NCBI GenBank assembly: GCA_015493215.1
Contig: WGDP01000019.1
Location: 1-39,564 of the forward strand
DNA: 39,564 nt
DNA from: Bacteroidales bacterium
GTDB taxonomy: Bacteria; Bacteroidota; Bacteroidia; Bacteroidales; F082
Reading direction: 5' to 3'
Numbering within the stretch: the stretch's first letter is position 1; every line of letters starts with the position of its first letter. The position numbers and the translations under genes are program-made. A model generated the notes under the pieces. It made no database searches, was not told the DNA's origin, and was given only the letters and a program-made list of their open reading frames with translations. Positions 20,415-39,478 of this stretch are shown piece after piece.

Positions 20415-22787
20415 ATGAGAGTCCGAAAAAAATACAAGTATTTGTGGGCAATAGTGGTAGTGGTAGCAGCATTGTTTTTGCTGTTGCTAACAGGCAGGTT
20501 GATGCTGCCGGCACCTCTTTTTAACGATGATTATTCCACCGTTTTGTTCGACCGGCAAAATAACCTGTTGGGGGCACGGGTGGCAGCCGATGGCCGGTGG
20601 CGTTTTTCCGAATCGGATTCAATTCCTTTGAAATACGAAAAAGCACTCCTCTGTTTTGAAGACAAATATTTTTATCACCATTTTGGATTTAATCCCTTAT
20701 CAGCTTTTAATGCGTTGATTGATAATGTTAAAGCAGGCCGTATTGTGCGGGGTGGCAGCACCATCACCATGCAGGTTATACGTATGGCAAGGAAGGGTAA
20801 ACCTCGTACCATCAAAGAAAAACTGATTGAAGTATGGCTTGCAACGGCGCTGGAAACCAGATGCTCAAAAAAGGAAATTTTATACCTTTATGCCTCACAT
20901 GCTCCCTATGGCGGCAATGTGGTGGGGCTTGAAGCTGCTTCGTGGCGCTATTTCGGACGCAGTCCTTTTCAGCTTACCTGGGCAGAGGCAGCCCTGCTGG
21001 CCGTACTTCCCAACGCACCCTCGTTAATTCATCCCGGAAGGCACCGGAAAGCTTTGCTTACAAAGCGAAACCGCCTGCTAACAAATCTGCTGAAAAACAG
21101 AACCATCGACAGTGCTGCCTACCGCCTTGCGCTGCTGGAAAAAATTCCTGAAAAGCCACACCGCCTGCCCGACAAAGCGCCTCACCTGTTGGAACAATAC
21201 CGGCTCAGGCATAAGGCCTTTAAAATACATACTACCATTGACGGGTATCTGCAAAGCAAGGTCAACGAAATAGCATCGGCTTATTACAAAAAATACAGAC
21301 AAAACGAAATATACAACCTGGCTGTGTTGGTGATGAAGCCCGACACCAAATCAGTGGTGGCTTATGTTGGTAACGTTGTTGAAAGTGGTAAACACGGAAG
21401 CCATAACGATATGATTCAGTCGCCGCGAAGCACGGGAAGTATCTTAAAGCCATTGTTGTATGCCGCTGCCATCGACGATGGGCAGATACTGATAAACAGT
21501 CTGATACCTGATATTCCAAGCTATTTCAAGAACTATCATCCACAAAATTTCGACCGGGTTTTTGAAGGTGCCGTTCCTGCCTCACAGGCGCTGTCGCGTT
21601 CGCGAAATGTGCCTGCCATTTACCTTTTGCGCGACTATGGTATCGGCAGGTTTATGGAAAAGATGAAACAGATGGGAATTACTACCTTTAACCGTCCGGC
21701 AGATTACTATGGCTTGTCGTTGATTTTGGGAGGGGGAGAGGCTACCCTCTGGGAACTGACCTCCGCTTATGCCGGAATGGCGCAAACACTTTTGCATTAT
21801 GATGATTTCTATGGGAAATATACCGGCCATGAATACGATAAGCCCGTTATCCTGAAAAGTCGGGTTGTCCGTGCAGTTGAACCTGAAAAAACGGCAACCT
21901 TGCCGTTGTATGCCGGCGCAATATGGGAAACCTATCAGGCACTTGAAAAGGTGCATCGTCCCGAAATGGAAGAGGGGTGGGAGTATTTTAACCCATCGGC
22001 ACCCATTGCCTGGAAAACAGGTACCAGCTTTGGATTTAAAGATGGTTGGGCCATTGGCTCCTCAGCTGATTATATAGTTGGTGTTTGGGTAGGAAATGCC
22101 GATGGCGAGGGGCGCAGCGGGTTGACAGGTACTTCCTATGCAGCACCCGTCATGTTTGAGGTGTTTGATGCGCTTCAGATTAAAAACCGGTTTCAACGGC
22201 CTGAAGATGACTTAACAGAGATTGTGGTTTGCAGGCAAAGCGGCTATCGTGCCTCGAAAAACTGCCCGGAAAAGGACACGGTTTTGTCGTATGTAGCCGG
22301 CAACAGGGTGAAGGCCTGTCCGTTTCATAAAATTATTTTTACCGACCAAAATGAGCAGCACCGGCTGAGTACACGTTGTTCCAGAGTTCATCAAATGAAA
22401 AAAGTATCGTGGTTTGTGCTGCCGCCGGTTCAGGAGTGGTACTTTCATAAAACACACCCGTCGTATCGCATGTTGCCTCCTTTTAAACAGGGCTGCTCTC
22501 CTTTGGATGATAACAACGTGATGGCCTTTGTGTATCCTCTTTCCGGCACAAAGGTGTTTGTGCCCCGTGGTGCCGACGGGCAACAGGAAGCGGTTGTTTT
22601 TCAGGTTAGCCATCAAAATCCCAACATAACCCTTTATTGGCATCTTGACCGTCAATATATCGGCTCAACGCAACGCATTCACAAGTTGGCTTTTATTCCC
22701 AAACCGGGCAGGCATCTTCTAACGGTGGTTGATGAAAACGGGATAAGTAAAAAAGTTGTTTTCGAGGTGATGGACGGAGACCGGTAA
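20415..22787 (+). CDS. pbpC: Penicillin-binding protein 1C
   Basis: This 790-aa class A penicillin-binding protein has a membrane anchor at about 10-27. The glycosyltransferase domain has the catalytic E82 in FEDKYFYHHFG and the RGGSTITMQ motif (112-120). The transpeptidase domain has S342 in SILK, SRSRN and KTG at 534-536. A C-terminal BiPBP_C-like beta domain covers the last 90 or so residues (YPLSGTKVFVPRG, LYWHLDRQYIG). PBP1C polymerises glycan and may crosslink it. The gene follows the alpha-2-macroglobulin gene by 7 nt. The REP-like palindromes start 36 nt after the stop. Confidence 0.95.
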   Translation: MRVRKKYKYLWAIVVVVAALFLLLLTGRLMLPAPLFNDDYSTVLFDRQNNLLGARVAADGRWRFSESDSIPLKYEKALLCFEDKYFYHHFGFNPLSAFNALIDNVKAGRIVRGGSTITMQVIRMARKGKPRTIKEKLIEVWLATALETRCSKKEILYLYASHAPYGGNVVGLEAASWRYFGRSPFQLTWAEAALLAVLPNAPSLIHPGRHRKALLTKRNRLLTNLLKNRTIDSAAYRLALLEKIPEKPHRLPDKAPHLLEQYRLRHKAFKIHTTIDGYLQSKVNEIASAYYKKYRQNEIYNLAVLVMKPDTKSVVAYVGNVVESGKHGSHNDMIQSPRSTGSILKPLLYAAAIDDGQILINSLIPDIPSYFKNYHPQNFDRVFEGAVPASQALSRSRNVPAIYLLRDYGIGRFMEKMKQMGITTFNRPADYYGLSLILGGGEATLWELTSAYAGMAQTLLHYDDFYGKYTGHEYDKPVILKSRVVRAVEPEKTATLPLYAGAIWETYQALEKVHRPEMEEGWEYFNPSAPIAWKTGTSFGFKDGWAIGSSADYIVGVWVGNADGEGRSGLTGTSYAAPVMFEVFDALQIKNRFQRPEDDLTEIVVCRQSGYRASKNCPEKDTVLSYVAGNRVKACPFHKIIFTDQNEQHRLSTRCSRVHQMKKVSWFVLPPVQEWYFHKTHPSYRMLPPFKQGCSPLDDNNVMAFVYPLSGTKVFVPRGADGQQEAVVFQVSHQNPNITLYWHLDRQYIGSTQRIHKLAFIPKPGRHLLTVVDENGISKKVVFEVMDGDR

Positions 22788-22823
22788 GGGCAATGTATGC
22801 TCAGCATTAATATTGGTTCATCC

Positions 22824-22852
22824 GCTCATTCAGGTTGCAAACCTGAACGAGC
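22824..22852. repeat. REP-like palindrome, copy 1
   Basis: The stem is TTCAGGTT/AACCTGAA at 22829-22836 and 22840-22847 with loop GCA, extended outward by GCTC/GAGC after one A-C mismatch. It is the first of a cluster of related elements downstream of pbpC. Confidence 0.75.
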
Positions 22853-22888
22853 TTTAGTATTGGGTTTATATTAAGTATGCTTTTTACC

Positions 22889-22906
22889 GCTCTTTCAGGT
22901 TTGCAA
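22889..22906. repeat. REP-like palindrome, left half only (copy 2)
   Basis: GCTCTTTCAGGTTTGCAA matches the left arm and loop of the family, but the right arm is missing. It looks like a truncated copy. Confidence 0.55.
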
Positions 22907-22912
22907 TCATCT

Positions 22913-22941
22913 GCTCATTCAGGTTACAAACCTGAACGAGC
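22913..22941. repeat. REP-like palindrome, copy 3
   Basis: It has the same architecture as copy 1, with arms GCTC-A-TTCAGGTT and AACCTGAA-C-GAGC and loop ACA. It differs from copy 1 only in the loop. Confidence 0.75.
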
Positions 22942-22993
22942 TTCTTTCTATAAAGTTTTTTTCCTTTCTGCGCTCTCTCTGCCACCCCTACAC

Positions 22994-23022
22994 GCTCTTT
23001 CAGGTTTGCAACCTGAAAGAAG
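22994..23022. repeat. REP-like palindrome, copy 4
   Basis: A perfect 10-bp stem CTTTCAGGTT/AACCTGAAAG (22997-23006 and 23010-23019) has loop TGC. The outer GAGC is degraded. It sits between the convergent pbpC and pepT ends and could also end transcription of both. Confidence 0.7.
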
Positions 23023-23056
23023 ATTAAATGCTGTCAATAGAGCTTTAATTCCCGGT

Positions 23057-24277
23057 TTAAATTTTAGCTACATTCTTCACCACGTTTACAATAACTTCCA
23101 CTGCTTTTTCCATGGACTGAACCGGAATGTACTCGTGGATGCCGTGAAAATTGTGCCCGCCGGTAAAAATATTGGGCGTTGGTAATCCCATAAACGAAAG
23201 CTTTGAACCGTCGGTGCCCCCTCTGATGGGCTTTTTAACGGGTTTTACACCGGCATCAAGCATGGCCTGTTCGGCAATGTCAACAATATATTTTACAGGC
23301 TCAATTTTTTCTTTCATGTTAAAATACTGGTCTTTCAGCTCAGTTGTAATCACTGCTTTACCATATTTTTCGTTGATAAAATCGGCGGTATGGCTTGCCA
23401 GCATTTTCTTTTGTTCAAACTTTACCTTATCATGGTCGCGGATGATATAACGCAAAACGGCTTTGTCAACCGTTCCCTGAAAATCCATCAGATGGAAAAA
23501 GCCTTCATAGCCTTCGGTATGTTCGGGACGTTGGTTATGTGGTAACATGCGGTCGTATTCCATGCCAATGGTAATGGCGTTAATCATCTGGTTTTTAGCT
23601 GTGCCTGGATGGACGTTTCTTCCCGAAACGGTTACGGTTAGTCCTGCGGCATTAAAATTTTCGTACTCCAGCTCTCCAATTCTGCCTCCGTCGATGGTGT
23701 AAGCAAAGTTGGCGGCAAACTTTTTAACATCAAATTTATCGGCACCACGGCCTATCTCTTCATCGGGAGTGAAGCCAACTTTAACGGTACCATGTTTTAT
23801 TTCGGGATGATTAACGAGGTATTCAACTGCCGTCATTATTTCGGCAACACCGGCTTTGTCATCGGCACCCAGCAGGGTGGTGCCATCGGTTGTAATAATT
23901 GTTTGCCCTTTATAGCTGAGCAATTCGGGAAAATCTGCCGGTGAAAGTACGGCACTGTTTCCCAGTGGGATATCCGACCCGTCGTAGTCTTCGATAAACT
24001 GAGGGTTCACATTTTCATCGGAGGCGTCCGGTGCCGTATCCATGTGCGAAATAAAACCGACTACGGGCACCTCGCTGTCCATATTGGATGGCAGGGTAGC
24101 CATAATGTATCCGTTTTTGTCAACAGCAGCATCGGTAAGCCCCATGGACTTTAGTTCTTCAACAAGCAGGTTGGCAAGGTTAAATTGTTTGTCAGTGCTG
24201 GGTGTTGTATTGGATTCTTCGTTTGATTGCGTGTCTATTTTGGCATATCTTACGAACTTTTCTACTACACTTTTCAT
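23057..24277 (-). CDS. pepT: Peptidase T (tripeptide aminopeptidase)
   Basis: This 406-aa cytosolic M20-family metallopeptidase releases N-terminal residues from tripeptides. The di-zinc ligands and catalytic residues align in number with the E. coli enzyme: H78 and D80 in SHMDT, D140 in GADDKAG, and E173/E174 in PDEEIGRG. A late GGTDGS segment and a GGHNFHGIHEY ending supply the last ligand region. Length and motif order are typical. It converges with pbpC across the palindrome cluster. Upstream lies a 227-nt spacer with other palindromes; no good promoter box was recognised there. Confidence 0.96.
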   Translation of the reverse strand: MKSVVEKFVRYAKIDTQSNEESNTTPSTDKQFNLANLLVEELKSMGLTDAAVDKNGYIMATLPSNMDSEVPVVGFISHMDTAPDASDENVNPQFIEDYDGSDIPLGNSAVLSPADFPELLSYKGQTIITTDGTTLLGADDKAGVAEIMTAVEYLVNHPEIKHGTVKVGFTPDEEIGRGADKFDVKKFAANFAYTIDGGRIGELEYENFNAAGLTVTVSGRNVHPGTAKNQMINAITIGMEYDRMLPHNQRPEHTEGYEGFFHLMDFQGTVDKAVLRYIIRDHDKVKFEQKKMLASHTADFINEKYGKAVITTELKDQYFNMKEKIEPVKYIVDIAEQAMLDAGVKPVKKPIRGGTDGSKLSFMGLPTPNIFTGGHNFHGIHEYIPVQSMEKAVEVIVNVVKNVAKI

Positions 24278-24391: not shown

Positions 24392-24439
24392 ACCCGGGGT
24401 TTCACCCCGGGCTATTTATATGCGACCCTTACAGGGTCG
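24392..24439. repeat. Double-hairpin REP-like element
   Basis: Two GC-rich stem-loops lie in series: CCCGGGG/CCCCGGG (24393-24399 and 24405-24411, loop TTTCA) and CGACCCT/AGGGTCG (24423-24429 and 24433-24439, loop TAC), joined by 11 mostly AT bases. From memory, similar paired hairpins recur in Bacteroidota intergenic DNA and resemble REP/RAYT substrates. It lies downstream of the dehydratase gene on the minus strand. Confidence 0.65.
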
Positions 24440-39384: not shown

Positions 39385-39411
39385 TTGCCCGCCCGTTCCG
39401 CAGGCGGGCAA
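39385..39411. repeat. GC-rich hairpin upstream of the aroC promoter
   Basis: TTGCCCGCC (39385-39393) is complementary to GGCGGGCAA (39403-39411) around a 9-nt loop. It begins 13 bp from the -33 element of aroC and may be a REP-like element or the terminator of a gene beyond the window. Confidence 0.65.
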
Positions 39412-39451: not shown

Positions 39452-39478
39452 GCTTTCGGATTACAAATCCGAAAGAGC
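39452..39478. repeat. REP-like palindrome related to the pbpC-pepT cluster
   Basis: A 10-bp stem CTTTCGGATT/AATCCGAAAG (39453-39462 and 39466-39475) has loop ACA, with AGC following. It keeps the layout of the copies at 22824-23022, but both arms carry changed bases that preserve pairing. Confidence 0.7.

Follow-up and report, generated by a model that had tools for sequence, protein, structure and literature searches.

REP/REPIN-like hairpins associated with a Bacteroidetes-type RAYT in a Bacteroidales genome

The hairpin cluster between the convergent pbpC and pepT genes of a Bacteroidales bacterium is very probably part of a REP/REPIN family, that is, of short non-autonomous mobile hairpins dependent on a Bacteroidetes-type RAYT (REP-associated tyrosine transposase) encoded elsewhere in the genome. 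The family has the features by which REP/REPIN elements are recognized, namely dispersed and mostly intergenic copies, a one-sided 5' tag, a RAYT gene flanked by the repeats, and inverted doublets. The link to the RAYT is supported by this flanking, by the orientation of the hairpins and by their co-variation with the enzyme, and the homology of the enzyme suggests that it would copy the hairpins. The cluster lies in a window of 39,564 nucleotides (the whole stretch of DNA that was analysed); the assembly comprises 355 contigs and 3.9 Mb, and the window is its contig 19.

The hairpin cluster and its genome-wide family

The features of the window were as follows.
20415-22787, plus strand: PBP1C, above the cut-off of TIGR02073
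22824-22852, minus strand: REP unit, G-type, read on the minus strand as GCTCG-TTCAGGTT-TGC-AACCTGAA-TGAGC, with a second GCTC on the other side
22889-22906, plus strand: 5' half copy, T-type, GCTCT-TTCAGGTT-TGC-AA, without the 3' arm
22913-22941, minus strand: REP unit, G-type, read on the minus strand as GCTCG-TTCAGGTT-TGT-AACCTGAA-TGAGC
22994-23020, plus strand: REP unit, T-type, GCTCT-TTCAGGTT-TGC-AACCTGAA-AGA
23057-24277, minus strand: PepT, profile score above the cut-off
39385-39411, no strand: GC-rich palindrome of the REP-apex family, outer arms decayed here (flanks inspected)
39453-39478, minus strand: REP unit, T-type, GA arm class, read on the minus strand as GCTCT-TTCGGATT-TGT-AATCCGAA-AG

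A sequence-only reading of this DNA had described three full copies and one half copy between the convergent genes, and these were found with the cores at 22829-22847, 22918-22936 and 22999-23017 and the 5' half at 22889-22906. The relative that it had placed at 39452-39478 was confirmed as well, with a core at 39455-39473 adjoining chorismate synthase, and its three-base loops GCA, TGC and ACA agreed with the window copies, which read GCA, ACA, TGC and ACA. The directionality of the copies was absent from that reading: GCTC was present on one side of the hairpin (on both sides in two window copies). The units at 22913 (G-type, minus) and 22994 (T-type, plus) formed an inverted T/G pair of REPIN-like appearance. 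The window contained five palindromes whose loop is 3 nt and whose arms are 8 or longer, four of them belonging to the REP family, compared with a mean of 0.77 and a maximum of 3 in 60 Markov-1 resamples of the window. A further palindrome, CCCGGGGTTTCACCCCGGG, was located at 24393-24411 between pepT and the next gene, outside the REP family. When folded as DNA, the two G-type window units gave -12.1 kcal/mol on the minus strand versus -9.8 (22824-22852) and -10.1 kcal/mol on the plus strand; G faces T on the favoured minus strand, whereas A faces C on the opposite one. The two T-type window units showed a difference of at most 0.2 kcal/mol between the strands.

On the one strand that is read, a unit comprises a tag of three nucleotides followed by C (GCT+C), then a stem some 10 bp long whose loop has three nucleotides and is mostly TGY. 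GCTC stood 5' of the stem on the strand with the TGN loop in 40 of the 42 copies with readable flanks, and the base after it was T in 38 copies (T-type), G in 30 (G-type) and A in two. All 11 inverted neighbours within 120 bp combined T with G and all eight tandem neighbours within the same distance were of like type, an order matched by none of 20,000 label shuffles. The elements look two-ended, being made up of two slightly different ends (T-type and G-type) in inverted orientation. Around other RAYTs, the outer three stem bases differed in 47 of 49 distinct inverted neighbours and also in 21 of 29 tandem neighbours, so that the type rule looks looser there.

Across the 3.9 Mb, the core TTCRGRTTNNNAAYCYGAA occurred 77 times, with no match in the backwards-read control, in keeping with the dispersed family that the sequence-only reading had expected. 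For an unbiased view of pairing, both variable arm pairs were left as N and the tag was added (pattern GCTCNTTCNGNTTNNNAANCNGAA), which gave 72 rows in the host genome (38 + 34) and none in the control. These represent 70 distinct palindromes, since two window palindromes with GCTC on both sides were counted twice, and the pattern prescribed the bases at the other arm places, which leaves decayed copies uncounted. Pairing at the two free arm pairs was kept in 71 of the 72 rows, the sole exception being one G.T in C342; the outcome that would have spoken against the sequence-only reading, pairing broken by variation as often as preserved, was thus not observed. The 5' arm had A or G, and no other base, at both of its free places, which gave the classes AA (26), AG (25), GA (12) and GG (6) plus the one G.T copy. 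Pairing at these places is far better kept than chance, in rows that are non-independent. The arm variation with kept pairing claimed for the cluster stands genome-wide but not within the cluster, whose three full copies have one arm type in common; the copy at 39455 and the rest of the genome are the source of the variation. The paired changes had also been said to imply selection or a hairpin-copying enzyme. The connection with a RAYT gained support, but selection is not proved by the pairing of changes in itself: copying that amplified a handful of such changes would leave the same picture.

Seven 5' half copies (window 22889, L030 4866, L034 274 and 585, L035 702 and 72, L038 2687) kept the tag, the arm and, in most cases, the loop, with the 3' arm absent; six of the seven were T-type. 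The count of 21 for 3' half copies mixes reverse reads of the same places with nested copies. Half copies and tandem copies are allowed by replication-based correction of palindromes, in which template switching in the hairpin copies one arm from the other while slippage and recombination spread the repeat with neither enzyme nor selection. Such correction would account for the paired arms, and the sole unpaired core was in the G.T state. However, it leaves unexplained the dispersed copies with a directional tag, the strict T/G order, the lasting G.T at the base of the stem (of 17 copies with G there, 11 have G.T and 6 G.C) and the flanking of RAYTs across the phylum described below, and we regard it as very improbable.

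T-type copies of the AA class with TTAACATG-like flanks were observed about 700 bases or less from contig ends (L034, L035, L036 and L040, on the short contigs C113, C114, C107 and C117). Repeat arrays may thus break the assembly, and the true number of copies may be higher than counted.

The RAYT gene and the hairpins around its relatives

Six genes were found in the search of the host genome for Y1 transposases. One of them, on another contig, encoded a RAYT flanked by the same palindromes, the arrangement that the sequence-only reading had suggested looking for.
C2:6945-7490 of the host genome G000 (locus L022), strand not given: RAYT of 181 aa, 97.2 bits with NF047646 (cut-off 80)
C2:6609, 6661, 6716, 6791 and 6857: five palindromes upstream of the RAYT
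C2:7500, 7538 and 7596: three palindromes downstream of the RAYT
C2:7669: further palindrome near the RAYT, with a second palindrome in its loop

The score of this protein with the IS200 model NF033573 was 24.6 bits, below the cut-off of 55, so that by score it is not an IS200/IS605-type TnpA. The HUH histidines and Tyr144 were invariant in 18 of 18 relatives, and the best solved relative was 4er8, a TnpA-REP. Judged by its motifs (NHIH, WQ and YIHNNP), the phylum and the absence of GT[AG]G, the host RAYT is classed with the Bacteroidetes type, subclass 2.6 or Bertels group 5. Subclass 2.6 was preferred to 2.4 because the motifs fit both and the repeats of 2.4 carry GT[AG]G, which is absent here. 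Among the five other Y1_Tnp genes, the four that were scanned (L024 was left out) fitted NF033573, three above the cut-off and one at 52.5 versus 55. No core was found in the stretches of 5-9 kb around L024-L027, and the core nearest to the fifth gene, L023, was 4.7 kb away. With no core in the stretches around four of the five, these IS200-type genes were rejected as a source of the repeats.

Among 173 genomes of the host's family, 58 had a RAYT and 47 a core match. The four other family genomes with RAYTs at 77-79% identity to the host RAYT had 43, 38, 13 and 7 cores. As counter-evidence, 19 cores in G152, 19 in G004 and 17 in G149 were accompanied by RAYTs of only 45-48% identity, G005 (12 cores) had a RAYT at 66%, and no RAYT was found in G003 (10 cores; completeness 77%); copy number does not strictly track the host-type RAYT. 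The GTT-type hairpin CAGCCGCATT was present in five of the 173 genomes (G094, G100, G104, G106 and G132) with one or two copies each, not dispersed, and these were the genomes whose RAYT loci (L055-L059) carry it.

The association of hairpins and RAYTs extended across the phylum. In the best 80 of 558 RAYT loci of named genomes, all titled Bacteroidota except one MAG titled Chlorobiota (titles taken as given), 106 TGY/RCA hairpins with arms of at least 9 were counted in 47,367 bp within 300 bp of the gene and 16 in 187,632 bp beyond 1,200 bp, a density 26 times higher near the genes. Some palindrome was present near the gene at 69 of these 80 loci. The tags mostly pointed outward from the RAYT (34 forward and 8 reverse on the 5' side, 50 reverse and 14 forward on the 3' side of the 80 loci). 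Enrichment near RAYTs was also seen for hairpins with other loops (45 near, 16 far), and TGY is thus one form among others.

A first set of 99 Bacteroidota RAYTs, several of them near-identical in sequence, included 70 with readable hairpins, 200 in total, of which 130 had perfect arms of exactly 10 and 170 had the loop TGC or TGT. The finder took perfect arms of at least 8 and certain loops only (T-first or A-last), so the rate of arm decay is invisible to it, and the tag counts do not include the 4-nt-loop hairpins of Pontibacter and Rufibacter loci. For 29 of the 99 RAYTs of this set and 37 of the 57 in a second set, no hairpin with a counted kind of loop lay within 400 bp. The frames of L099 (306 aa) and L079 (228 aa) extended past the usual RAYT end, and by eye the tail of L099 resembles the end of a DDE transposase.

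Tag diversity, nested palindromes and turnover

In hairpins across the RAYT lineages, the positions -13 to -11 from the loop contained 0.78, 0.60 and 1.10 bits of information, compared with 0.03 bits at -14 to -16 and 0.06-0.23 at +11 to +16. GTAG or GTGG stood directly 5' of the 10-bp stem in none of the 200 hairpins at the 70 RAYTs, and GT[AG]G occurred anywhere in the 16 nt before the loop in 15 of the 200. A tag class was assigned to 49 of the 99 RAYTs (28 GCT, 11 GTT and 10 ACT/TCT/CCT); the remaining RAYTs lacked a hairpin or had none of these tags in the majority. The pairs of Pontibacter diazotrophicus (L082) and Phocaeicola coprophilus (L116) are examples of a GCT and a GTT pair. On a quick RAYT tree, in which 40 of 96 inner branches are drawn open as weak, the tag class changed six times, whereas 2,000 shuffles averaged 18.9 changes and never gave fewer than 13; with the tags kept as printed and unclassed, 18 changes were counted, a number that has no shuffle control. 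The distance between stems also followed that between RAYTs (Mantel r 0.587, equalled by none of 2,000 permutations), the stem difference per 10 rising from 0.84 in the closest bin of RAYT distance to 5.72 in the farthest. In the second, more distant set of 60 RAYTs, 57 had an ORF and 20 a readable hairpin, and 18 of the 20 had GCT, GTT or ACT/TCT/CCT (pooled) as the majority tag at the same place, L168 and L195 being different.

A residue code for the tag was also considered. Residue 130 carried the most information on the tag in the first set, with 133 equal to it at two decimals; K130 was present in 25 of 28 GCT rows, none of 11 GTT rows and one of 10 ACT/TCT/CCT rows. Predictions for the second set were fixed before it was gathered. 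None of the 20 held-out RAYTs with hairpins had K130. The prediction that a RAYT without K130 is not mainly GCT was right in 14 of these 20 and wrong in six (L153, L193, L198, L201, L204 and L207), that of GTT from E130 was right in none of three, and that of GTT or ACT/TCT/CCT from I or V130 was right in 12 of 17. The code failed this held-out test, was unsupported outside the main clade and was rejected; the pattern probably reflects shared ancestry.

The GC-rich palindrome TTGCCYGYC...GRCRGGCAA, a pattern that itself includes the TT and AA next to the loop, occurred nine times in the host genome and not in the control.
L221-L229, on contigs C45, C114, C120, C129, C133, C134, C189 and C281 of G000 and at window 39385-39411: nested palindromes

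Their flanks placed all nine at the apex of REP-type hairpins, with the arms clear or nearly so in eight and decayed at window 39385. Nested palindromes outside this pattern also exist, such as that at C2:7669. Nested palindromes were sought around other RAYTs in 169 loci as well, and this candidate was rejected: the eight loci that gave rows were judged to contain REP pairs lying close together and not inserts, with the exception of one short row in L207.

The left flanks of nine repeat sites were sought in three congeners (G001, G003 and G004). G004, which shares 91-92% DNA identity with the host at the RAYT locus, contained all nine flanks, and eight of the sites aligned in it on both sides. 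The repeat was absent from four of these eight (S2, S4, S6 and S7), S4 being a clean empty site, and one of three copies was kept at S5. At S3, S8 and S9, G004 had the repeat with another palindrome in the loop, absent from the host at these orthologous repeats, and two of the three were decayed; at S9 the host had a plain TGT loop. Insertion of the nested palindrome at the loop and its loss from the loop are both possible. No cores were found at the loci of G001 (8 sites, with one weak match of 81% over 77 bases left out of the comparison) and G003 (6 sites), where the far side often fails to align. At the window cluster, no alignment of G001-G003 reached past pepT itself into the neighbouring stretch, and G004 aligned on the pbpC side only.

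At the RAYT locus itself, G004 and G001 kept the neighbouring genes and had no RAYT, differences that would fit either gain or loss of the RAYT at this locus. The place of the RAYT in G004 (L217) was taken by a gene resembling the RelE/ParE type by eye, adjoining a decayed REP. The corresponding locus in G001 (L218) carried a group of similarly built hairpins of another family, with CACGGTT or TACGGTT arms and loops mostly TGC or TGT, and CACGGTT hairpins flank a different RAYT in G004 (L195).

The absence of the repeat from S2, S4, S6 and S7 of this near congener also bears on a host-used signal, such as a transcription terminator, an mRNA 3' stabiliser or a nucleoid or gyrase site, kept by host selection with the RAYT as a bystander. 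The position of the window cluster between convergent genes, the strong hairpins and the location of 39 of 42 copies outside called ORFs, though 88.6% of the examined bases were called coding, would suit such a signal. Against it, besides the empty sites, no terminator-like site, promoter or known RNA was found at 22600-23200, and Rfam gave no match at gathering score anywhere in the window. Nor was there an excess of clusters at convergent sites, since the 22 intergenic clusters comprised 11 co-directional, 2 convergent and 2 divergent ones and 7 at contig ends, compared with 58, 16 and 22 co-directional, convergent and divergent background intergenics. A host signal of this kind is therefore very unlikely. 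The inverted two-ended structure would also suit a DDE-transposon MITE that has inverted ends and no relation to the RAYT, but each end here is itself a hairpin with a 3-nt loop and a one-sided tag, tagged hairpins surround RAYT genes, and no target duplication was visible by eye at S4, which leaves this explanation a negligible chance.

Taken with the REP/REPIN reading, these observations allow a broader proposal, which we put forward tentatively and with clearly less than even confidence. In Bacteroidota, the label of the RAYT/REP pair, a tag placed at a fixed 11-13 nt from the loop, may have shifted among GCT, GTT and ACT/TCT/CCT in step with the divergence of the enzymes, while loop and stem length stayed constant, and the REP apex in the host genus may be home to a gene-less palindrome, gained or lost at orthologous REPs, as a repeat parasitising a repeat. 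If this is true, nature supplies a series of guide-switched RAYT/REP pairs.

Proposed mechanism and comparison with known systems

By analogy with the RAYTs studied so far, binding, cutting and copying by the host RAYT, as well as a selective reason for the pairing, may be pictured as follows. The tagged strand would become single during replication or transcription and fold, and the folded strand would be bound by the RAYT via tag, stem and loop, as for TnpA-REP of E. coli and the group 3 enzymes (PMC8266576). The HUH/tyrosine centre would cut close to the hairpin, and the two-ended unit would be excised or copied and then joined at a new intergenic place. Pairing would be kept because only the copies that fold are substrates.

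Inverted pairs, subtypes and RAYT flanking are already standard in REPs. The palindromy of REPs kept by complementary changes was noted in 2010 as 'suggesting selection for complementary mutations' (PMC2817692), and the REP/BIME of E. coli are tagged hairpins with inverted subtype pairs (Y, Z1 and Z2), one RAYT gene flanked by copies, a mostly intergenic location and a preference for one strand (PMC6006769, PMC8266576). The host family resembles this system with its TnpA-REP (group 2, subclass 2.2) in the presence of a tag on the hairpin, the inverted pairs of different subtypes, the RAYT flanking, the intergenic location and the strand preference. It differs in the sequence of the tag, which is GTAG in E. 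coli versus GCT+C in the host REPs, and in the stem, which is long with a required bulge in E. coli, whereas in the host it measures about 10 bp and carries a loop of 3 nt that is mostly TGY. The REPs of Stenotrophomonas and Pseudomonas (group 3, subclass 2.5) are similar as short near-perfect palindromes with small loops, their palindromy is likewise preserved by complementary changes (PMC2817692), and loop bases of group 3 REPs matter in tests (PMC8266576), but these REPs have a GTAG or GTGG tag, occur in Proteobacteria and belong with another RAYT subclass. The host repeats are not canonical GTAG REPs of groups 2 and 3, having GCTC instead of GTAG or GTGG at the foot.

Two other systems bear comparison. 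The CGTC-tagged repeats are short tagged palindromes, also reported from Bacteroidetes, for which no dedicated transposase is described there (PMC3733652); with GCTC and a RAYT, the host family is not of the CGTC type. The elements IS1397, IS621 and ISKpn1 insert into REPs (PMC1525189) and so use REPs as targets, like the apex palindrome in the host, whose insert is some tens of bases long and gene-less.

The closest likeness is to the subclass 2.6 TnpA-Y1 (Bertels group 5), described in the available text of the class survey as mostly from Bacteroidetes, with the motifs NH[LIV]H, WQ and YIH[QN]NP and a length near 179 (PMC6006769). The same text reports for these genes no GT[AG]G consensus, atypical and weaker flanking structures that called for manual inspection, and copies in the host (PMC6006769). 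The motifs and the 181 aa of the host RAYT, the absence of GT[AG]G and the copies in the host genome all fit. As far as our searches of the full-text literature reach, the Bacteroidota form with a GCT/GTT/ACT-type tag at fixed distance, a 10-bp stem, a mostly TGY loop and two ends, in which the tag follows the enzyme tree, is new, and supplementary Table S1 of PMC6006769 may list some of the hairpins. For groups 2 and 3, the RAYTs studied best, the tag is GTAG or GTGG and its fit to the enzyme has so far been probed by mutation; with related enzymes that have different natural tags at a fixed geometry, recognition would be testable by swapping pairs. The main text of the survey, in its available part, gives no tag or geometry for subclass 2.6, whereas both are defined here for the host-type REPs, and the repeats left as atypical in that text thereby gain a usable definition by their tag, a 10-bp stem and a loop that is mostly TGY.
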